DNA of 64,000 nucleotides from Phoenix dactylifera (taxonomy: Eukaryota; Streptophyta; Magnoliopsida; Arecales; Arecaceae): positions 1,910,843 through 1,974,842 of the forward strand of contig NC_052401.1 of NCBI RefSeq assembly GCF_009389715.1. The letters are read 5' to 3'. Made by a program: the position numbers and the translations under genes. Position 1 is the stretch's first letter, and every line of letters starts with the position of its first letter. Positions 10,266 to 56,342 of this stretch are shown here, one piece after another. The notes under the pieces are model-generated. The model did not search any database. It saw nothing but the letters and a program-made list of their open reading frames with translations, and had not been told where the DNA came from.

Positions 10266-13200
10266 CTACAACCACCCATGATGATGAAGCACCACCTGGC
10301 CAGGGTTATTAAGGTCAAGGGAACTGATGCCATGAGGACCTTCAGGGTTCACTGCGCCAACTGGAATCATTCCCTACAAAAGAAGCATGACACTGAACAT
10401 AAATACAGTTCAAAACATAGAAAAGAATTTGATGTGCCAATTGTTGACCTGAACCTGGCCCAAGTGGTAAAGTCCTAGAGCAGAAGTTCCATCCTGCCCT
10501 TGTAGATAGCAACTACTGCCAGTGATGTCTCTATAATGTGGAAATAGTCCTGGTTGTGCAACCATCAAAGCCTCCTGCAAGACCAATCAACCCTAATTTC
10601 TCTTGTTGTTGCAGAACATGGGTGTTGACCATACAATTTCTCCAAGTTCTCGGAAATATACCTGACTTAAACTGTGAAGTGGATGGTCGGTTACAAAAGC
10701 AGGAGGTTGAAGTATAGCATCCCCACTGGATTCCTGCAAAAATTGTCTCAACAAATATTAGCAATAACAATGTTATTAAGTACCAGTCAAATAGCATGGT
10801 TCTCAGATCTGCATGCTATACTCCAATCACAAAAGCTGAAAACCACAAAAATAATTGCATCATGTTTCACAATCTAGATTACTTGATTCAAATGGTGAAT
10901 TTGATGGCCACTAATGACTACAGGAGATTGCTGCAAACAGTGCAAGTTGGATGCCTACAATCAAATAGCATTAGTTAATAATACTGTAATAAAACATAGA
11001 TTGACAAATTGACAAGGCGACATCACCAATGTCATACTTGACCCAAAATATGAAGTTGATGTGCAGCCATAGCAACTGGAGACTGATGCATAATAGTCAT
11101 GTTCGGTCCCTACCAAATGTGCATACATGTTAACATAAAAACTTATGACCAAAAAAACTCTATGGATATGTCAAGTAAACATTGTATAGATTATGAAGGA
11201 TCTGAATGTTCTCGTAATAACACCTGGCCTAAACAGTGAAGTTGGTGGCCAGCCATGGCAATGGGAGACTGCAGCATAGCACTTCTATCGCACACCTATG
11301 AATTTTATACCATGAAAAATTGTAATCGCTCAATCTAATGAAAGCAGTCTATCACAAATAGGAAATCTTAGACGGACAGAGCACAATATTGCAGAAGGTC
11401 GATGACTATGTACTTGACTCAAATGGTGAACTTGTTGGCCATCAATAGCAATTGGAGATTGTTGCACAGCAGACATGTTGGGGCCCTGCAAGATGAGCTT
11501 CATATAGTAATATTGGTGATATAATGAAAAGCTTAATATATTGACACAGTACTGTTGCATATTTCATACCAGCGCCAAGAAATGAAGTTGATCAGATGCC
11601 ATAACAGCAGGATTTTGTTGCATAGCAGCCACATTGGATACCTGTAAGAATTTGTTTTTTGGAAAAAATAAGAGAATCCATTATAAATTACCAAAAAAAT
11701 AAATTAGCAACTTCAAGAATGTATGGTCCAACTGCAACAAGAACAATGTCCTTCAAGACAAATACATCATAATTCTACTTCATAAACATGACATGTCATA
11801 TTGTTTCTGAAAGGCCATAGTTTCTCAGATCTCACCTGGCTTAAACAGTGATGTTGATGGCTGGGCATTATCATGGGAGACTGCGTTGTGGCACTCACAC
11901 AGGGACCCTGCAAATTTGTTTGATCAGAGGTAACAGTAATCAAACAGTCTTAAGCTGTATTAACACAAAAGCATATCAAAAATTAAATGCAATGGAATAA
12001 TAAGAATGCCCAGGTACTCCATAACACAGTATAGAGTTCAGGAAGCTTGCTATCAGATGCCTTTGATAGCATCAAGAAAAGCTTCCTAGTAGATCTAAAA
12101 TCTGGGTCTGGATGGTAAAGGACAAATATAATTCCTATGTAATGTTAATTGTCGATACCTGACTTAAATAGCAAAGTTGATTCGTAGCCACAACTGGAGA
12201 AAGTTGGGTATAAGCCATATTGGATCCCTGCACAGTTTATACTATAAGTAAAATACAAACAGCGTAACAAAAACAATTCAAAATATCTGTTGCAATCATC
12301 AGGTTTCTGGAAAGAGCGGTCAATCAAAATCATAGCAAGTGAACATAAAAGCTAATTCATGTACCCCAAAATGATACCGGGCTTAAGCAGTGAGGGTGAT
12401 GGCCAGCCATTGCAATAGGAGGTTGTAGCCCAGCACTTGCATTGGAGCTCTGCAAAATTGTTTTATCGCAAACAACATTAAAACATACGATCCATCTGTA
12501 GGAAAGCAGAAAGTTGATCACAAATAAATGGCAAAGAGCAATAGAAAAGTTGATAAAAACAGAATGGACTTGCAAATAATTCTATGCAACAATCCAAGAC
12601 CTTGCACAAAAAGGCTAGCCAAAGATATTATTTGGGTTCCTTAGCCCTCCCTATATATCCAAGATCTACCCAATGCATAATCAAGGGATTAAATACATGC
12701 CCACATGTATTCTCACACACTCCTCCAGTTTAAACCCGAGCATTTTTGCCAGGCTAAATGTTCATATCCAATCACAAATACCATAAAAGGCCTGTGGTCG
12801 GCCTTGTACGAGACCATGTTGCAGTGTCTCCAAGTCCACATTAGCTATGAACCAGGTTTACTCTGATAATATTTGCAACAACCCAAGACCACACCCAAAA
12901 AGGCTAGCCAAAGATATTATTTAGATTCCTTGGCCCTATACAAACGTGGGACTAAGCACATGCCTATGCGGATCTTGACACAGAGAGAGAAAGAGCTCCA
13001 TACATGAGTGGCCAACCCAGCCCACCTTACATACACTCGTGTGTGGTAATTAGCCTAAAAGCCCACAAGCTCCACCATCAGCCCGTAATCAACTCCAAAA
13101 TGGCCCATGTTGTAGGGTCCTCTAGTCCACATAAGTCATGGATTAGGTCTACTTTGAAACCATTTCTAACAACTCAGAATCTCACTCAAAGGTGTTATTT

Positions 13201-16200
13201 GGGTTTCTTGGTCTTGTATAAGTACCCAAAGTATCTCCAGCACACAACCGATATGGAACTAAACAAACACTCGCACAAGTCCTTGTACACTCCTCTCGTA
13301 TAAGTCCTGAAGATTTTATTAGGAAACAGATTTAAATTCAACCAAATCCAATCACAAACACCACAACTAGCCCATGGTCATCCCCAAAAGGACCCGTGCT
13401 ATAGTGCACCTACTCCATGTGGTCCAAGGCTTAAACAGGGGAAGTATATAAGAGCCCGTGATGGCATGTGTTTAGTCCCACGTCAGTTGTACGCTGGAAA
13501 AATCTTGGATACTGATACAAGCTAAAGAATCCAAATAATACCTTTCGGCTAGCTTTTCTAGATGAAATCCTAGGTCATTACATTCTACAAGATATATGAT
13601 TGATACGGTAATTTTTGTCATCATCAATAAAAACAGGAAATTAATACAATAAACATGATGGAGCACAGTAAAGTGGATGTTCACAAACTACTGCCAATAA
13701 ACAATACAAATAGCTTAAAGAAATAGCAAGGCAATATTGCGAACTTCATACTTCATTACCAGATTGCAACACTGAAGTTCATGGGCAGTCATAACAGGTG
13801 CAGATTGCTGCATATTTACATTACATGCATAAAACATAACCATTAAATGCAAGCAGAATACAACAAGAAAGCTTCTAAATGGCAGAGAAACGTTTCAGGC
13901 TTTAGTTACCTGACTCATAAAATGAAAGTCACTGCTATTCCTGGTAGAAAGACAATTCATACTCCTGCCATTGCCCAAAAGAAAGGTAACATGGATTAAT
14001 AACCAAAAATTCTTCTAGGTAACAGCTTTTGACGTATTGATCTAATAAACTACCAATTTCATTTACTTTTATTTACCTGACCAAGTTTCTATGATACCCG
14101 CCTATAGCATCAGTTTGGTGTACACAACTCTTAGGTTCATTACTTGTGCTTGAAACCGAAGCCTGTGCACTTTGTCCTATACCCATAAATGACCAAAAAG
14201 GTTACTTAGACCTGTAATATCGTGTTTGACTTTCTGCAAATACTACACTCTTACCCTCTTTGCACTTCATTTTCCCTTTTCCATTAGGCATTTTGCTTGA
14301 GCTTAATTTTTTGTCAGACCTGGCAGTCTTTTTCTGCTTAGCTTGCTTATTCAGAAGCTTCATGCTACAATCTTGTTCTTTTTGCTTCACAATAGGCGCA
14401 TCACGTGAAGGTGTCCTAATATGATCCAGAGTCACAAATAAATTCATTACATATCAACAAGCTACTGGGATGAGGATTCGTCAACAGGAAAATCAGTTTT
14501 AAAAGTAATAGAAGGGAAAGGAGTTTGCCATGTCCCCCCCCCCCCCCCCCCTTCCTCCTTCAAAACAAATTTTTAATCTAGAAATGGATTAAGAGCATGC
14601 CCTTAAGGCATCAATGCAATTTTAAATTGCTAACAGTGTGCTTTTCGCAAAATTTCCTGGATAATGATACTCAAAATAAAAGGGAACAAATTTATAGATT
14701 TAGCATAGGAGCACCAACCACCCTCAATTGTTATTAGAGTCTTTCTTTGGTAAAATGATAAAGGGAATGAAATAAAGAGTGGAAGAAGAGAATAAAAAAG
14801 GAAACATATGAGAAGGAATAAGACAAAAAAGAATCCTTCTAGAAAAGATGGCTAAAACAGTAATTATACCATGATATGCCTTCTTTAAAAGAGAGAGAGA
14901 GAGGGAGAGAGAGAGAGAACTAAGGGGATTATCTTATGATATCTCTTGGCCATCAGTGATAATGGAGGCTTCACTTTCAAAATCTATATATATTGAAACT
15001 GCATGAATTAAAATCAGACTTGATCTAAGGATACTTTTTTAAATCTAAAATAAAAGCAAGAGCAACAAAAATGGTATAAAGTTATATAAATCTTACACTT
15101 AAGCTACTATAAGTATTCTTAATGACTCCTATGAGCATGCATTTCTTAAATTAGCCTTTTTTTTCCCTTTCAAGGGTGCTAATTTACCATGTTCACGTTA
15201 CTGGACAGAGGGTCTCAATTATCTGTAATAGTTACATGTGACTGGCTCCCCTACCCTCCCTGCCATCGTTGGCAAATTCTATCATTTAGACCCATTTCCT
15301 TCCTAAATCTGATTATGACCCAGTTCACTAACACATCCTGTACTGATCTTCAAAAGAATCTCCCATGAAATATTCAGCATTGAAACATATAAATTAAAAC
15401 ATGAGCATGTTCCAACAATTATGACACTGAGCATGTTGGTGTTTGACCTTGTCCACGCAGACTCCTACAAAAAGTTGAGCACTCACTACTTGTTCACAAA
15501 CATTGCACATGCAAAGGACGTAAATGAAAAATTAAATTACAAGTTTTATTCATGATACTAAAAATGAAAATAATAAGAAATAATTAATGACAGTTACCAT
15601 CTAGTAAATTTTGTTATTATGCCACTTACAATGGAAATGGATTTGCTAAGTTGCTAATGCTCGGAGTGCTTCTATGTTCATCTCTTTCAGCAATCTCTCT
15701 CAGACTATACCATAGTTTTCTCTTCCTTCTGCAGGACCCACCAACAGATTTTCCTGAATCTGTTGCTGCAGAACTGTTATGACAAGCAGATTGCTTATCT
15801 GAGCCTGATACACTTACTTTCTTTTTCTTCTTTGATGCTTTTTCACCAAGTTTCTCTGAAGGAGTGGCTGGACTCTCCTTATTGTGGACACTCAGTAAGG
15901 GTTGATGCTCACTAATTTTGGGAATCTCATCCGTAACATGTAACAATTTCCTCCTTTTCCTTTTAGTTCCTCTGGCTTTATCTGAAGCTGTTGCAACAAA
16001 GCAATTTTTAGCAGTATGCATGTCTGACTCAGATACGCTCGCTTTCCTTTTCCTCTTTGACAAGATACTACTCTTTTTCTCCACAGGAATTACTAGATTA
16101 TCACTGCTTCTGCATTTTTGGGTTTTGTACTCACTACTTTTTGGAGTCTCCTTCAAATTACACAAGGCTTTCCTACTTTTCTTGAACTTACTAAGAATTT

Positions 16201-16978
16201 TTCCCTCACTAGCATCTTCTCTGTCTAATCCTGATATACCCACTTTGCTTTTCTTCTTTGATAAGATCATGTGAGTTTTCTCCATAGGTGTCACCTTTCT
16301 GTTCTTGTTAAGATCCTTAGCTGCTTCAATTTCCCCAGAACTAGTGATTTCTGATGCAGAAACAGATTTCGAATTCAGATAAATGCTTTCTTTCTTGTTC
16401 TTATATAATTCCCCCTTAGCTAGCGAATCTTTCATACCATTTCCTGCTTTCTTATCTGTCGACCTACGGGGTTGTGAGATCGAAATGCATCTTGGTTTTG
16501 TAGCTAGTAGCTCTTTCACATGGCCTGTTGGTGTGCCCCCTTTCAAGTTCCGGTGAGAACAGAAATGGCATTTGTAAATAATGTTGTTCTGGGTGGATGC
16601 TTTGATCTCATTCTTATCAATTCGAACAGTGCAGTTATAACCAGGCTGTAGAATGGTTTCGCATCTGCACACAAATTTTGAGAATGGAACATAGATATTG
16701 AAACTCAAACAAAAACCTAGCGTTTAGCATGCCAAAGCCAACTAGTAAAACAAATCTCACCTTTCACAAGGAAAAAGAAATGGATCTAGAGGAGCTCCAG
16801 CAGCCTCTGCATGAGCAGCCAAGAGGCGGCCAAAGAAAGCACTCAGAGGACGAACTGGAGCTTCCTTGCCAGTCCATGTTGCCATTTTCTGCAGATGCTT
16901 TAACCTCAAGATAGATCTAACATTAAAACATTTTTTACCAGTGCTTTCCTCTCGAATTGTAGCACCTTGATGTCCCAT
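10266..16978 (-). CDS. Nuclear protein with Rpr2/Rpp21 zinc domain and tandem-exon tail
   Basis: Seventeen minus-strand exons join in consistent phase: 16978-16761, 16664-15630, 14415-14255, 14176-14077, 13964-13910, 13807-13760, 12449-12378, 12227-12159, 11907-11836, 11641-11570, 11485-11414, 11295-11224, 11109-11038, 10954-10883, 10733-10662, 10574-10455, 10373-10266 (2490 nt, 829 aa). Residues 1-110 resemble plant proteins with the RNase P Rpr2/Rpp21/SNM1 domain: two CxxC pairs (Cys71/74 and Cys105/108) that would bind zinc, flanking GYNCTVRI. Rpr2/Rpp21 itself is a protein subunit of the tRNA-processing RNase P. Residues about 110-470 are very rich in Lys, Ser and Arg with several KKKRK-type nuclear signals. 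The tail from residue 540 is made of repeated 23-24 aa units, one per exon. The ATG at 16978 is used because the frame upstream lacks an ATG. The 3' end is uncertain: the last predicted exon again ends in a CAG/GT donor-like site, and reading through exon 16 would instead stop at 10410. Confidence 0.75.
10662..12449 (-). repeat. Array of nine tandem 69-72 nt phase-0 exons
   Basis: Nine exons in the Rpr2-domain gene are tandem duplicates: eight of 72 nt and one of 69 nt (12227-12159), each flanked by AG and GT and each starting and ending between codons. They encode related 23-24 residue units with the pattern G-x-N-x4-Q-x-S-P-x-x-M-x-x-H-Q-L-H-x-L-x-Q; examples are MHQSPVAMAAHQLHILGQ and VQQSPIAIDGQQVHHLSQ. 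Start-to-start spacing ranges from 155 to 323 bases, so introns diverged more than exons. No unit has a stop. The conserved splice sites and frame argue that the units are used, though transcript evidence is not available here. Confidence 0.8.
12596..13583. repeat. Repeat block in intron, direct and inverted copies
   Basis: Inside the intron between 12449 and 13760, a segment with GGCTAGCCAAAGATATTATT occurs at about 12596-12652 and again at about 12875-12935; a diverged third copy starts near 13166. A further copy lies in inverted orientation at about 13525-13583. The direct spacing is about 280-290 bases. This looks like an inserted, internally repeated transposable element of a class I cannot name. 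Confidence 0.6.
14534..14551. repeat. C18 homopolymer
   Basis: Eighteen consecutive C residues lie in the intron between the large basic exon and the next exon of the Rpr2-domain gene. Homopolymers of this length are often miscounted in assemblies. Confidence 0.9.
14891..14918. repeat. (GA)n microsatellite
   Basis: A short GA-rich run with one interruption, in the same intron as the C18 tract. Confidence 0.85.
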
Positions 16979-23550: not shown

Positions 23551-24374
23551 ATGCCGATAAACTCTACGCACTACCATCCCCCACAAGCTTGGTCCTGGGA
23601 GCCACCTATGAACCCACGCCATGACCAGCCCCAGCACTACTACCAGTATGAGTACGAGAGAGAGCGCATGTTTGAGAAGCCCCTCACCCCAAGTGATGTG
23701 GGCAAGCTCAACAGGCTGGTCATTCCCAAGCAGCATGCCGAGAAGTACTTCCCCCTCGCCGGAGACTCGGGCGAGAAGGGCCTGCATCTGAGCTTCGACG
23801 ATATTGAGTCAGGCAAGTCATGGCGGTTCCGCTACTCCTACTGGACCAGCAGCCAAAGCTATGTGCTCACCAAGGGCTGGAGCCGCTTCGTCAGGGAGAA
23901 ACGGCTCGACGTGGGCGACGTGGTCCTCTTCGAGCGCCTGCGGGACGGCGGCGACCGCCTCTACATTGGTTGCAGGCGCCGCGGTGATCCCGAAGCTACG
24001 CCGGCTCGCACCATGGCCAGGCCCAATGCTGCAGTACCCTGGAGTCCCGTGTACTGCACAGCAGCAGCCTCCAGTTCCTACTGGTACCTTAGCTCAGAGC
24101 AACAAGACTGTCTTCTTCATGCAGGTAGATGTGGTGATATAGCCATGATTTAAGCATCGTGACTACTGAATCAAAGAGCAAGCATGTAACTCATGAACTT
24201 TATCCAATTGCAGGAGATGGATCAGTGGAGAAAGCAGCACCGGTTACCTCGAAGCGGCTGAGATTATTTGGCGTGAATCTGGAATGCGGGCCGAACTCGC
24301 CGGAGCCACAGCCGGTGCAACCAGAACCATGCTTAACAGACCAGAGCCCCAGTGCCCCCAGCCCCCAACCATAG
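23551..24374 (+). CDS. NGATHA-type B3 transcription factor with RLFGV motif
   Basis: Two exons, 23551-24124 and 24214-24374, join in frame (735 nt, 244 aa) across an 89-base GT-AG intron. The B3 DNA-binding domain covers about residues 40-147: [50 protein letters not shown], and [10 protein letters not shown]. This is the RAV/NGATHA type of B3. There is no AP2 domain, which separates it from full RAV proteins. After the intron, [12 protein letters not shown] contains RLFGV (residues 208-212), a plant transcriptional repression motif. NGATHA factors act in leaf margin and style development, so a nuclear repressor of organ growth genes is the likely role. The start is the first ATG in the frame, 40 residues before the domain. 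A stop lies in the intron 9 codons after the splice site, so intron retention would remove the repression motif. Confidence 0.9.
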
Positions 24375-47963: not shown

Positions 47964-50900
47964 GTGATGGCAGCCGTTTCAACTTTCCGAGGAGAAGCTG
48001 ATCAAAGGCGTTTTCTAGGAGGCAACTGGAAAGCAGAAGATGAAGCCAGGCGAGCTCAATGCCAAAGCTCATGGAGACCTACTAAGATGACGGAAACAGG
48101 GATTGATGGGTCATCATCGTCCCATTCTCATGCGGCTGCTATCGATCTAGGCAAAGGTCCAAACCCTTAGAGACCTGAGAAGAAGATGGATGGTGAAGGT
48201 GATATCTTCATTGCTAGGAGACCTGAGAATCTTTCAATGTTTTTACCGACCACAGAAGGAGTTCGTCCACCAAGTGCTCCGGAGGTATCCTCGGGCTCTT
48301 CGGCGCATTCACTCAAGAGGTTGATTGGGATCCTATTAAGTTTGGATGCGGAACTTATCTAGTCCTCTTTCCCAATCGATTGAGCTTGCTGCAAGCAGCC
48401 CGACGAGGATCAGTGCGACACAGTCTCTTCTCCTATTCAGTGCAGCCGTGGTCGTACAGAGATGGGGCCATACCCCATCGGCTCCAGTTCCTTGGCATCC
48501 CACTCCATGCATGGGATGCGGAGACGGTAAGAAGATTGACCTCTGGTTTCTGTCAGCTTGAGAGGGTGTCTCCATGGACACTAGTTGGCCAGGATCTTTC
48601 TATTTTTGAAATTTATGCATTCTGTGAGAGGATGGAGGAGAATCATGCTACTCTAAGAGATGCCACAAGTCTTCAGAGGAAAGCATGCGGGCTGATCATA
48701 ACGTCCGCGTTGAACAAGATAAAGAAGACATTGTGGATAACACTGAGGCAGGGAAATTTTGGAGAATGAAGAAGGCGGCTCCCAGTCAACTTCAAGGCTA
48801 AGAAAGTCAACTACATTAAGGGCAGTGGGCTCTGTGAGGGAGGCAACTGCAGAGTTAATTCCAATTCATAGGAAGAAAAGAGGTGTTAAAGTAGATGAGT
48901 TGATCTTAAACCTATCAAAGCCGAGGATGGCTCTTGTCCGATGGTGGAAAAGGTATGAAATCCAATAGTTCCACATCGGAAAGACTCATTACAGAGCCTG
49001 AGCATATGAGGCAGGTGTCTCCAAATTCTGCAGACGCATTTTGGGAAGAAAACAAAATCAGAGAGGGGTGAAGAATGCTTGCGTGAAGCCTCGGAACCGG
49101 ATAATATCTGGCAGGAGAACAGCGACTTCTCTTAGAATGGAGAAGGACATGTGGGTTTTCTTTCTCAGAGGATGTTGCAAAGGAAGTCGTCGACAGCCTA
49201 CTTGCGTTGGAGAAGGGGAAGGCGGCAGCAGTGCTTTTGGTTGATGGTTGGTGGTGGTCTTCAATCAGCTATGGGTTTCTGCTTGTTATGTTAAGTTGGC
49301 CCTTGCTTTTGTAACCAGGATGTTCTTCTGACGATAGAAGGGGTAATCAGCAGAGCTTGAAGGACAATTTGATCTTTATGGACTTCATATCCTCTCTTAA
49401 TCTTATAGATCTTGATCTTAAAGGAAGGAACTTCACGTGGAGCAACCGAAGAGATCATCCTTCCCTGGCAAGACTTGATAGTTTCCTTTGGTCCCTGCTT
49501 CTATAAAGAATGGTCTTTCTAGCTCAGCATCCGATCATGTTCCAATAGCGCCTGAGTGTGATATCAAATTTTATGCACCAAAAATCTTCACTTTTGAAGA
49601 ATGGTGGCTGAAGGAGCAGGACTTGGATGATGTTGTTATCAACTCTTGGAGTAGTATCATAGAAGTCATAACCATGCAGCAGCTTGGGTGGATAATTTGA
49701 GGCGGCTCCGTTTGGCACTTAAGAGGTGGTCTTCCACTAAAAGAATTTCGAATAGAGATTTAAAAGAGAAACTACAGCATGATGTGGATATTCTTGATAG
49801 GAAGGAGGAGTGTACTGATCTCTCACCAGCAGAACTTATTTCTAGAGGATTTGTACCATAAGGAGGAATTGTATTGGAAGCAAAGGGCTAAAATTACTTG
49901 GCTTAAGGAAGGGGATAGAAACACCACTTATTTCCACAAAATAACATCAGGTAGGAAGAAGAGGAATTATATTGCAGCTCTATTGGATGATGGCACCGAA
50001 TTCACATTACAAGAGGACAAAAACTCTAGATTGCACTTCTTTTTCAAGAACTTATTTAGCAATACCTACACTCCTAAAATCTCTATTAACTAGAGTCTAC
50101 TATATAGTGATTGTTGGGTGAATCTAGGTGAATTGGATGATCAATTCACACTAGAAGAGGTCAAGAATGCTGTTTTTTCATTTAATGGATTGGAAACCCC
50201 TGGGCCAGATGGTTTCATAGAGATGTGTTTGACTTCACCAGACTGAGCTTTGCCTTCATTTCACTCATACCCAAAAAAGAAGGTGCACTCACTGTGCATG
50301 ATCTCGGAGCGATCAATCTCCTCAATAGTCTTTACAAAATTATTACTAAGATACTTGCAGGAAACTTGGCAAAGTTTCTCCCCTCTTTAATTGACCAATT
50401 CCAATATGCTTTTGTCAAGGGCCGATACACTATAGAGAATTTTCTTAGTGCCCATGAAATGATCTCCTATTGTAAGAAAATGAAGCAAAAAGGTGTTTCT
50501 GTGCAAATTGGATTTTGAAAAGGGACTTGATAAGATAAACTGAGATTTTTTTTGCAACTCTCTAAGCCAAAGGTTTTCCTAGCAGGTGGATTAGTTGGGT
50601 GCACAGTCTTCTATTTTCGGACTTCAGTTGCTCTCCTTGTAAATGGCAGACTTGAAAGATGAATCAAGTGTAGGTAGGGCTTACAGCAAGGTGACTTGCT
50701 TTCTCCTGCTCTTTTCATTATTGCTGTGGATATGTCAGTTAGACTTCTCAAGCAAGCTGGTGCACTTGGTCCAATTGAAGGAATGGAAAATAAGCAAGAA
50801 TTTAGAGAAATCAAGTTTGCAGTTTGCTGATGTTACACTGTTATTTTCTGCTAAAAAATAGGCAAACACAATGGCTGCTAAAGCAATCCTCTTAGCTTTT

Positions 50901-52320
50901 GAAGAGGCATATGGTCTAAAAATTAGCTTTCACAAGAGCTCTATTCTATGTATCAATATGGAAGACAGGGAGGCTTCGATGTATGCTGATTGGATGAATT
51001 GTAAAAAAGGATCAGTTTCTTTCTCTTACTTGGGTCTGCCCCTCTGTGACACGAAGATGCCTAAACATTGTTGGTTGCTGCTCATTGAAAAGATCAATTT
51101 AAGATTGACTTCTTGGAAAGGCAGTCTCTTGTCTTGGGGTGGTAAACTAACATTAATTAATTTTGTTTTGACTGCATTACCTTCATACTACATGTCTATT
51201 TTCAAGTTGCCCAACTGGGTCATCAATAGAGTTGATAAAATGAGGAGGACCTTCCTATGGAGAGGAGAAGAAAGTGTCTATGGCTTCTATTGTCTGGTTA
51301 ATTGGGATAAAGTTTGCTGAACAAAAGAGCAGGGAGGATTGGTATAAAAAATATTGATCAAATGAACCAAGCCCTTCTCACCAAATGGCCTTGGAAATTT
51401 CTTAAAGGATCTAAGAACCATTGGTAGAATCAGATAAATAGTGCCTACTGCAAGAGGTTCAAGTTTGGAACGAGATCGAAAAAAAGTCTTGTTAAGCTGT
51501 CACCTATTTGGAGGGATATTAGTAAACAGGATGGCGCCTTCTAGAATTGTATCTCCTTTAAGCTTGGAAATGGACGTAGCATTCACTTCTGAGAGGATTC
51601 ATAGATTGATTCAGTACCATTTTGCTCTCTTTTTGCGGATTATATGAAAAGGTTGTTAAGCATAACACCCCTGTGACCAATTATTGGAGTTGGAGAATAT
51701 TGACATGGCACATTAGACTACGAGGTCCTTTGGCTCAGGAAGAGATGAGACAACTAGAAGCTCTTCACGAGATTCTTGCCTTACTTAGACCCTCAAGGCT
51801 GGCTGATGTGCCAATATGGAAGTTAAACCCAAATAGTATATATTCAGTTGACTCTTACTATAATTTTTTGAATAATAGAGGATTAAGATGCCCATATCAC
51901 AAGAATATCTAGAGAGCAACCATTTTAGAGAAAGTTAGAGCCATCCTTTGGCTTGCTTTAAGAAACAAACTTCACACAGGAAAGACTCTAGCAAATAAAG
52001 GATGGAATGTTTGTGTTGGGTTCCCTTTATGTAGCTATAACAGTGAATCAGTTAATCACTTATTTATAATGTCCCTGTTCTCTATAAGCATTTGATCCAC
52101 TATAAAACTACAGTTGAATTTGAAGGGTAGCCTACAAATTTTCATGATTTATGGACCTAGTGGAGAAAAGTAGGAAGAAGTGCAGGGGGTTGACTTCTTA
52201 CCGCTATTTGCTGGGGGATTTGGAAACAGCGAAATAAGAGAACTTTTTTCAAAAGGAATCGATCCATCTACTTTATTCTTCAAAAAGCATTACATACTTT
52301 TCATAGTTGGGAGTGCATAT
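47964..52320 (+). mobile_element. LINE (L1-type) retrotransposon, decayed
   Basis: Plus-strand fragments follow the order of a plant L1-type LINE. ORF1 remnants start near 47964, with a DUF4283-like segment at 48380-48640 (FLGIPLHAWDAETVRRLTSG). The endonuclease end lies at about 49340-49500 (NLIDLDLKGRNFTWSNRR). Reverse transcriptase spans about 49850-51320: ITWLKEGDRNTTYFH, ISLIPKKEGA, QYAFVKGR, SYLGLPLCDTKMP, GGKLTLINFVLTALPSYYMS. A zf-RVT-like end follows to about 52300. Many frameshifts and stops break it, and the catalytic F/YADD box reads FADV, so it is dead. Confidence 0.85.
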
Positions 52321-55095: not shown

Positions 55096-55400
55096 ACACC
55101 TGTCTTCAGATTGCGTATACGAAAGAGAGGTGAAATAGCGGATATGAAAATCGTGCTAACAACGTTGCCTCCCCTCTTCATCACCAGCCAGCCAACCTAA
55201 TCCCGGAATAACCAATCCCCAACGGAGTCGTCAAATCGAGCCTCATATCAGCGGCCCTTCCAAAATATACCGCCAAATAAAAATATTACTTATCGGATCC
55301 TAATTCCTTGTCGGATCCTCTCCCCTTGTTTATATTAAAGCGACCCCCTTCTTCCCCGCTTTCGCTCAAAGGCGAGATTTTTAACTCGATCTCCATTCCG

Positions 55401-56342
55401 ATGGCAAACGAATCGACGCCGACCGGCGGCGGAGCCACCACAATAGAGGACCTCCACGATGACGTGCTGACGAGGGCTCTCCGGCACCTGGACGGGCCTG
55501 CGTTGGCGGCAGCGAGCTGCGCCACCTCCCGCCTCCGGTCGGTCTCCACCCAGCCCCACATCTGGCGCGACATCTGTCTCGCCACCTGGCCCTCCCTCCG
55601 CCACCCCCGCCTCCTCCGCATCCTCCCTTCCTTCCCCCACTCTTACCGCTCCTTCTTCTTCGATGCCCACCCCTTCCCCTCCCTCCACGCCACTGCAGCC
55701 GGACGCGGCCGCCTCACGGAGCTCATCTCAGCCGTCGATCTCTACCACGACGGCGCCCCGATCTTCTCCCGTGTCGTGGAGACGGAAACCACCTCTTCCT
55801 GGTTCCAAGGCGCGCCCTTTCGGATCGACGCCCTCGACCGGAAGGACCTATCAACGGCGGCCCTGGTGATCTCGCCGGCGGACCTGACACTTAGCTGGGT
55901 AATTATCGACCCGGCCGGACTCCGGGCGGTGAACCTATCTAGCCGGCGACCGGTGGCGGTAGACCGCCAATGGTACACGTGGGACACCCTGGTCCGGTTC
56001 GCGACGGTTTTGGAGGTGGGCGGCTCGGTTTACTCGGCCACGGTGGTGGTCACGTGCCACGAGGCGACGGGGCACGTGAGGGAGCTGGGCCTAACGGTCG
56101 AGGACATTGATGGGATTTGCTTGAATGGAAGGAACAGTCTGGGGATTTTGGGGGCGGCGCTGGAAGGTGAAAGGAAGAGGGAAACAGAGGGAGAAACGGA
56201 GATGAGATACGAGGGGTTCGCGAAGGGGAAACGGCAGCGGGAGGAGTGGACGGCGATGAGAGAGAGGATGCTGGATTTGTGCTGCACCACCGTCGGGGTC
56301 TCGGCGTTCCTCAGTTTTTTAGCACTGGTGGCTTTCCCATAA
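55401..56342 (+). CDS. F-box protein with C-terminal hydrophobic segment
   Basis: A single-exon gene of 313 aa. The frame is open from 55308 but the ATG at 55401 fits the family, placing the F-box at residues 15-55 (EDLHDDVLTRALRHLDGPAL and TQPHIWRDICLATWPSL). It resembles the intronless plant F-box proteins of the At2g27310/At2g36090 group. F-box proteins bring substrates to SCF ubiquitin ligases through SKP1. A conserved middle includes SSWFQGAPFRIDALDRKD and LSWVIIDP. The last 23 residues (CTTVGVSAFLSFLALVAF) form a likely membrane anchor, seen in this group. Codons are very GC-rich compared with the flanks. A LINE tail ends about 300 bases upstream. Confidence 0.87.
   Translation: MANESTPTGGGATTIEDLHDDVLTRALRHLDGPALAAASCATSRLRSVSTQPHIWRDICLATWPSLRHPRLLRILPSFPHSYRSFFFDAHPFPSLHATAAGRGRLTELISAVDLYHDGAPIFSRVVETETTSSWFQGAPFRIDALDRKDLSTAALVISPADLTLSWVIIDPAGLRAVNLSSRRPVAVDRQWYTWDTLVRFATVLEVGGSVYSATVVVTCHEATGHVRELGLTVEDIDGICLNGRNSLGILGAALEGERKRETEGETEMRYEGFAKGKRQREEWTAMRERMLDLCCTTVGVSAFLSFLALVAFP

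Follow-up and report, generated by a model that had tools for sequence, protein, structure and literature searches.

Does an array of short repeated exons in the date palm, Phoenix dactylifera, encode the tail of an Rpr2-domain protein, or does it belong to a gene of its own? We addressed this in a window of 64,000 nt, the whole stretch of DNA that was analysed (NC_052401.1, positions 1,910,843 to 1,974,842 of assembly GCF_009389715.1). The original prediction had placed nine tandem duplicated exons in a gene whose 5′ part carries an Rpr2/Rpp21-type zinc domain. All coordinates below are those of the window, and strands are given as + or -. Elsewhere in the window, open frames at 49764-51912 (+) look by eye like a LINE-type reverse transcriptase, a 200-aa open frame at 23551-24153 (+) like a B3 DNA-binding domain protein and a 353-aa open frame at 55281-56342 (+) like an F-box protein.

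Anatomy of the unit exon array

The nine related exons lie on the minus strand, and the outer coordinates given for them (10662..12449) are exact. Moreover, the AG/GT borders and phase 0-0 claimed for these exons hold for 9/9, and none contains a stop codon. Eight of the nine are 72 nt long and the remaining one, exon 8, is 69 nt. They are numbered 7 to 15 in a gene model, all of whose exons are predicted from the sequence, that has 17 coding exons in a continuous frame; every intron is GT-AG with compatible phases, and introns 5 to 16 are all phase 0. The unit exons, all on the minus strand, are exon 7 (SSNASAGLQPPIAMAGHHPHCLSP, 12378-12449), exon 8 (GSNMAYTQLSPVVATNQLCYLSQ, 69 nt, 12159-12227), exon 9 (GPCVSATTQSPMIMPSHQHHCLSQ, 11836-11907), exon 10 (VSNVAAMQQNPAVMASDQLHFLAL, 11570-11641), exon 11 (GPNMSAVQQSPIAIDGQQVHHLSQ, 11414-11485), exon 12 (VCDRSAMLQSPIAMAGHQLHCLGQ, 11224-11295), exon 13 (GPNMTIMHQSPVAMAAHQLHILGQ, 11038-11109), exon 14 (ASNLHCLQQSPVVISGHQIHHLNQ, 10883-10954) and exon 15 (ESSGDAILQPPAFVTDHPLHSLSQ, 10662-10733).

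A tenth unit, shortened to 48 nt, forms exon 6 (13760-13807, -) and is recovered by a DNA profile (nhmmer) at E 4.7e-6. The array is preceded by exon 4 (14077-14176, -; 100 nt, phase 1-2) and exon 5 (13910-13964, -; 55 nt, phase 2-0, C-terminal HFMSQ), and it is followed by exon 16 (10455-10574, -; 120 nt, phase 0-0, C-terminal LYHLGQ) and by the final coding exon 17 with its TAG stop (10266-10373, -). Exons 5 and 16 were considered as extra units. Exon 5 is faintly unit-like, and the best stretches of exons 5 and 16 match the unit profile at E 0.058 and 0.58 respectively; these matches are weak or not significant, and the two exons are therefore not claimed. Coding sequence of the array gene is first recognised in an exon at 14255-14447 (-), which is either exon 3, if the gene is fused (14255-14415), or an exon that opens with its own ATG at 14447. 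Intron 6 also contains, at 12585-13379, DNA repeated at a spacing of about 280-290 nt and of 580 nt (families D4-D7); this may be a mobile or tandem repeat by which the intron was lengthened.

Relatedness of the units and constraint

Pairwise similarity of the unit exons was compared with that of shuffled sequences. It exceeded z 3 in 24/36 pairs, with the top five at z 17 to 21, whereas the same comparison among introns 6 to 15 (n=10, ends trimmed) gave a best value of z 2.5 in 45 pairs. The units are thus homologous exons of one phase, with likeness in the exons and not in the introns, as is found for duplicated symmetric exons. A protein profile searched against the six-frame window recovers all nine at iE 4.8e-11 to 1.7e-14, with the next match at iE 0.054; this recovery is circular, as the profile was built from the same nine units, and the comparison of exons with introns is the independent control.

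The open frame of the nine units was matched by 0/2000 mononucleotide shuffles, and the other two sense frames contain 13 and 4 stops. Identity among units at the three codon positions is 0.618, 0.617 and 0.551. The pooled pN/pS is 0.65 (bootstrap 0.45-0.91), with a Jukes-Cantor (JC) dS of 1.03 and dN of 0.49. A dN/dS comparison among units had been put forward with the original prediction; once run, it gives a pooled ratio of about 0.5, which mixes functional divergence with constraint, since units are compared with one another. Judged from this divergence, the units are old duplicates under moderate protein constraint. The original proposal was that the tail grew by unequal exchange and could give many isoforms. 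Growth by exon duplication is supported, given exons that are alike, introns that are not and constraint on the protein, and variable isoforms by exon skipping are possible by phase.

These data also bear on the reading that the array is a relic, either an old part of a gene that is no longer transcribed or a set of unused exons. One unit is shortened and another possibly decayed, and tblastn and a motif search found no second array in the genome, all of which would suit a relic. However, the nine units, whose mean dS is about 1, have all stayed open and kept their splice sites, and the introns diverged while the exons did not. We therefore consider a relic improbable.

The unit consensus is xSNxxAxxQSPxxMAxHQLHxLSQ, in which proline 11 and leucine 22 are invariant. 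Exons 6 to 15 encode 231 residues, among which Q, S, A, L and H are abundant and there are 1 K/R and 7 D/E; in contrast, 394 residues of exons 2-4 carry 89 K/R. No significant match to the array was found in Pfam, NCBIfam or PDB sequences, the sub-threshold Pfam hit being DUF6118 at E 0.091. Leucine-rich repeats (LRRs) were considered for the 72-nt exons, and no LRR Pfam match was seen at E≤1. The array tail may resemble the C-termini of FAR1-related proteins. The unit has no family match in the libraries searched; arrays of symmetric repeat exons are of a known kind.

A shortened unit, a possible decayed unit and a possible order of blocks

Exon 6 scores iE 2.7 against the protein profile in the six-frame window and E 0.0018 within a set of four exons. 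It has been truncated on its 5′ side: the preceding 21 nt are still unit-like (ACNVNMQ) and there is no AG at the old border, the acceptor AG now used lying directly before the shortened exon. Exon 6 resembles exons 14, 13, 12 and 10 to about the same degree.

Moreover, intron 6 tentatively contains a decayed unit without splice sites (13594-13664, -), whose nearest exons are 11 (63%) and 14 (57%). Its best-of-nine score was reached by 1/400 dinucleotide shuffles and its score against exon 11 alone by 0/400, counts that are uncorrected for the 16 introns examined; the score was also reached by at least 1/100 plain shuffles. The DNA profile did not find this candidate (E 28). The shortened exon 6 and, tentatively, the decayed unit suggest that units can be lost.

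The similarities among units hint at blocks of three, pairing exon 9 with 12, 10 with 13 and 11 with 14. With exons 7, 9, 12 and 15 labelled A, exons 8, 10 and 13 labelled B and exons 11 and 14 labelled C, this order is not significant for the nine units, as 2552/20000 permutations were as good. For eleven units, where exon 6 joins B and the decayed unit joins C, 492/20000 permutations were as good and the same A-B-C labelling was best, in a test that includes a decayed unit picked for its unit likeness. In a tree of the units 0/8 forks reached the support mark; the decayed unit with exons 11 and 14 stood at 83/91, and exons 7, 9 and 12 at 80/85. Taken together, the similarities give a hint, and only that, of growth in blocks of three.

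The Rpr2-type gene and its relatives

The 5′ part of the model begins with coding exon 1 (16761-16978, -), which is open, starts MGHQGATIREESTGKK.. and is similar to the start of a paralogue, C17b. Coding exon 2 (15630-16664, -) holds the zinc-ribbon cysteines, a K-rich body and the C-terminal ..ANPFPL, and the TAA stop of the resulting short protein of 418 aa (15626-15628, -) overlaps the GTAAGT donor of the putative intron 2. Correcting the start from ATG 16885 to ATG 16978 gave the full domain; the long form then has 829 aa and a single stop. The Rpr2-type domain predicted for the 5′ part is confirmed after this move (PF04032, E 5.4e-12, profile positions 1-90 of 90), at 46.3 bits against a gathering score of 29.3. 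Two CxxC-type zinc-ribbon pairs are present, CERC and CHFC, with CQRC and CHFC as the counterpart in C17b. No match to the Rpr2 part was found among PDB sequences at E≤1; in NCBIfam, ribonuclease P protein component 4 came up below the threshold (E 0.085). Membership of the gene product in RNase P/MRP is predicted from the domain. The domain and zinc-ribbon cysteines are like those of RPR2/Rpp21/Snm1 proteins (PF04032), AtRPR2 included, and the protein starts MG.. and ends ..PF.L* as AtRPR2 does.

The K-rich body (residues 162-387 of the 798-aa model) contains three copies of a repeat of about 70 residues, ..TPxEK..SKKKxKxxxS.SD..KRKRK..., of which the paralogue C17a has one copy and C17b a shorter one. 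The Rpr2 gene itself thus seems, from its sequence, also to have grown by internal repetition.

Paralogues were sought by tblastn with a 798-aa model, that is, with the start before correction. The date palm genome gave 24 matches, with paralogues of the Rpr2 part on contig C17. Two tandem Rpr2 paralogues lie there about 12 kb apart (C17:15095973-15111094; L022, L023). C17b is intact, with 275 aa and the start MGRKQEKK..TTLRDENTGKK, while the frame of C17a is broken in its first exon. Between the Rpr2 parts of the window and C17b, dS is 0.99 across 112 codons. As the units have nearly the same pooled dS, the array taken as a whole is not young.

Matches to the array tail came only from the window's own locus, save for one weak match on contig C1 (E 0.99). 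The open frames of the latter look unrelated and chance-like by eye, and it was rejected as a second tail. In the 30 kb around the C17 paralogues there was no convincing tail match, the best of those overlapping the tail (E 0.06) being K-rich and on the opposite strand, and unit profiles did no better there than iE 4.8 and E 0.67. A degenerate unit motif searched across the genome with up to 2 mismatches gave 10 sites, 4 in the array and 6 outside contig C10. The six outside sites were rejected as arrays: at four (L028, L032, L033, L034) the profile finds the motif site alone, at E 0.0027 to 0.58, and at L031 and L035 it finds nothing. Therefore neither tblastn nor the motif search, both of which can miss diverged 24-residue exons, found a second array in this genome.

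The putative gene boundary: stop codon or splice donor

Whether the Rpr2 exons and the array form one gene turns on the 1214-nt interval between them, the putative intron 2. The second exons of the paralogues end ..SSFAIPFHI* (C17a) and ..SSFAIPLRI* (C17b), and that of the window ends ..SNLANPFPL* if intron 2 is retained; the window end ..PF.L* is similar to the ..PF.I* of C17a. The cloning primer for AtRPR2 (At5g41270), as given in PMC3324470, translates to NFKIPFLL*, and the forward primer there reads MGKRGPKK by eye. A homologous C-terminus and stop codon are thus common to three loci of this genome and to Arabidopsis AtRPR2, the latter from one primer. Unlike the model of the window that runs into the array, C17a, C17b and AtRPR2 end before the place where the array would begin, and none of these three relatives carries the tail or lacks a conserved stop before it. 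The original prediction had itself named such ends as counting against it.

The window stop sits within TTG TAA GTG, which is the donor of the putative intron 2, and TTGTAAGTGG holds the full GTAAGT donor core. One reading is that the locus is a single gene, in which splicing at GTAAGT removes the old stop and fuses the array to the K-rich Rpr2 protein (829 aa); the 418-aa protein would come from transcripts that stay unspliced or are polyadenylated early. In its favour are the frame, unbroken across 17 coding exons with GT-AG borders and compatible phases throughout, the single stop of the 829-aa form, and the K-rich composition of exon 2, which by eye carries on into exon 3. The phases of exons 2 and 3 fit, which has a 1 in 3 probability by chance. 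However, the ends of C17a, C17b and AtRPR2 lie at the homologous codon, the joining intron is the weakest of the 16 at both donor and acceptor, and there is no convincing tail within 30 kb of the C17 paralogues. The donor of intron 2 scores 0.8 (others 3.2 to 10.2) and its acceptor -4.5 (others 1.4 to 12.8) under a leave-one-out model that has 15 training sites, ten of them beside mutually related unit exons, and is thus biased toward their style. Moreover, TTG TAA is common to the window and AtRPR2, and the following GTGG to the window and the C17 genes; splicing is therefore not needed to account for the donor-like string. We regard a single gene as possible though doubtful.

A more specific scenario, which we consider unlikely, is that an ancient Rpr2 stop turned into a splice donor, one locus making the ancestral RNase P/MRP subunit as well as a long form whose array, of up to ten modules, is skippable.

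The shared stop is open to a counter-argument: any phase-2 intron that opens with GTAAGT necessarily has TAA in frame, so paralogues that lost a tail could end at this codon too. Only the Arabidopsis end, known from a single primer, favours an ancestral short protein.

Two further features lie in the interval. Its sole AATAAA is 76 nt past the stop, although a single such signal is no rarity in 1.2 kb of AT-rich DNA, and an in-frame ATG at 14447 lies 32 nt upstream of the supposed border of exon 3. Taken together, the conserved stop, the weak splice sites, the AATAAA, the ATG and the lack of a convincing tail near the C17 paralogues lead us to prefer two genes. The claim that the Rpr2 exons and the array form one gene was accordingly not borne out: the intron that would join them begins at a conserved stop and has the weakest splice signals of the model. 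On balance we favour head-to-tail neighbours on the minus strand, an RPR2-type gene that ends at the shared stop and then an array gene of ten duplicated unit exons. The two have probably been merged into the supposed "Rpr2-domain protein with a repeat tail".

Proposed origin of the array and its significance

With two neighbouring genes, the first would be an RPR2-type RNase P/MRP subunit of 418 aa in two coding exons, from 16978 to 15626. The second would run from about 14447 to 10266 and encode about 422 aa if the in-frame ATG is its start, its start and boundary both being putative; no promoter was recognised for it. It would have a short K-rich start, ten phase-0 unit exons, all complete but one, which is shortened, and then a further two phase-0 exons. 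We propose that the array grew as exons were duplicated along with their introns, and that the introns afterwards diverged past recognition while selection held the sequence of the units. Each of these nearly uncharged units, about 24 residues long and with abundant Q, S, A, L and H, may be one copy of a weak interaction motif. The array protein would then be a multivalent, flexible tail, probably nuclear, and the strength of the tail may scale with the number of units. Units could be gained, lost or skipped; that this leaves the frame unbroken is observed, and differing isoforms may follow from it.

Arrays of short symmetric exons that encode one repeat each occur in collagen genes, with 54-nt phase-0 exons, and in plant and animal LRR genes, with 72-nt exons. 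The present array has in common with these that the exon is the repeat unit, that a single phase is kept and that growth is by exon duplication. Unlike them, its consensus reads neither as an LRR nor as the collagen Gly-X-Y. The tandem exon duplications of PMC9013439 are spliced in a mutually exclusive way, one exon being chosen per group; the systems described there and the present array both have tandem related exons, whereas here consecutive phase-0 units can all stay in frame. Within the open-licence literature of PubMed Central we found no title or abstract that describes a plant Rpr2 protein with a repeat tail, or such an exon array.

In summary, the locus illustrates how two neighbours can be merged into one gene model where a stop codon resembles a splice donor. 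A true fusion would be a clear example of splicing that opens the end of a protein by passing over its own stop codon. The array itself is a clean natural series of exon duplications in a plant, in which the introns have no likeness to one another and the units are open and constrained.
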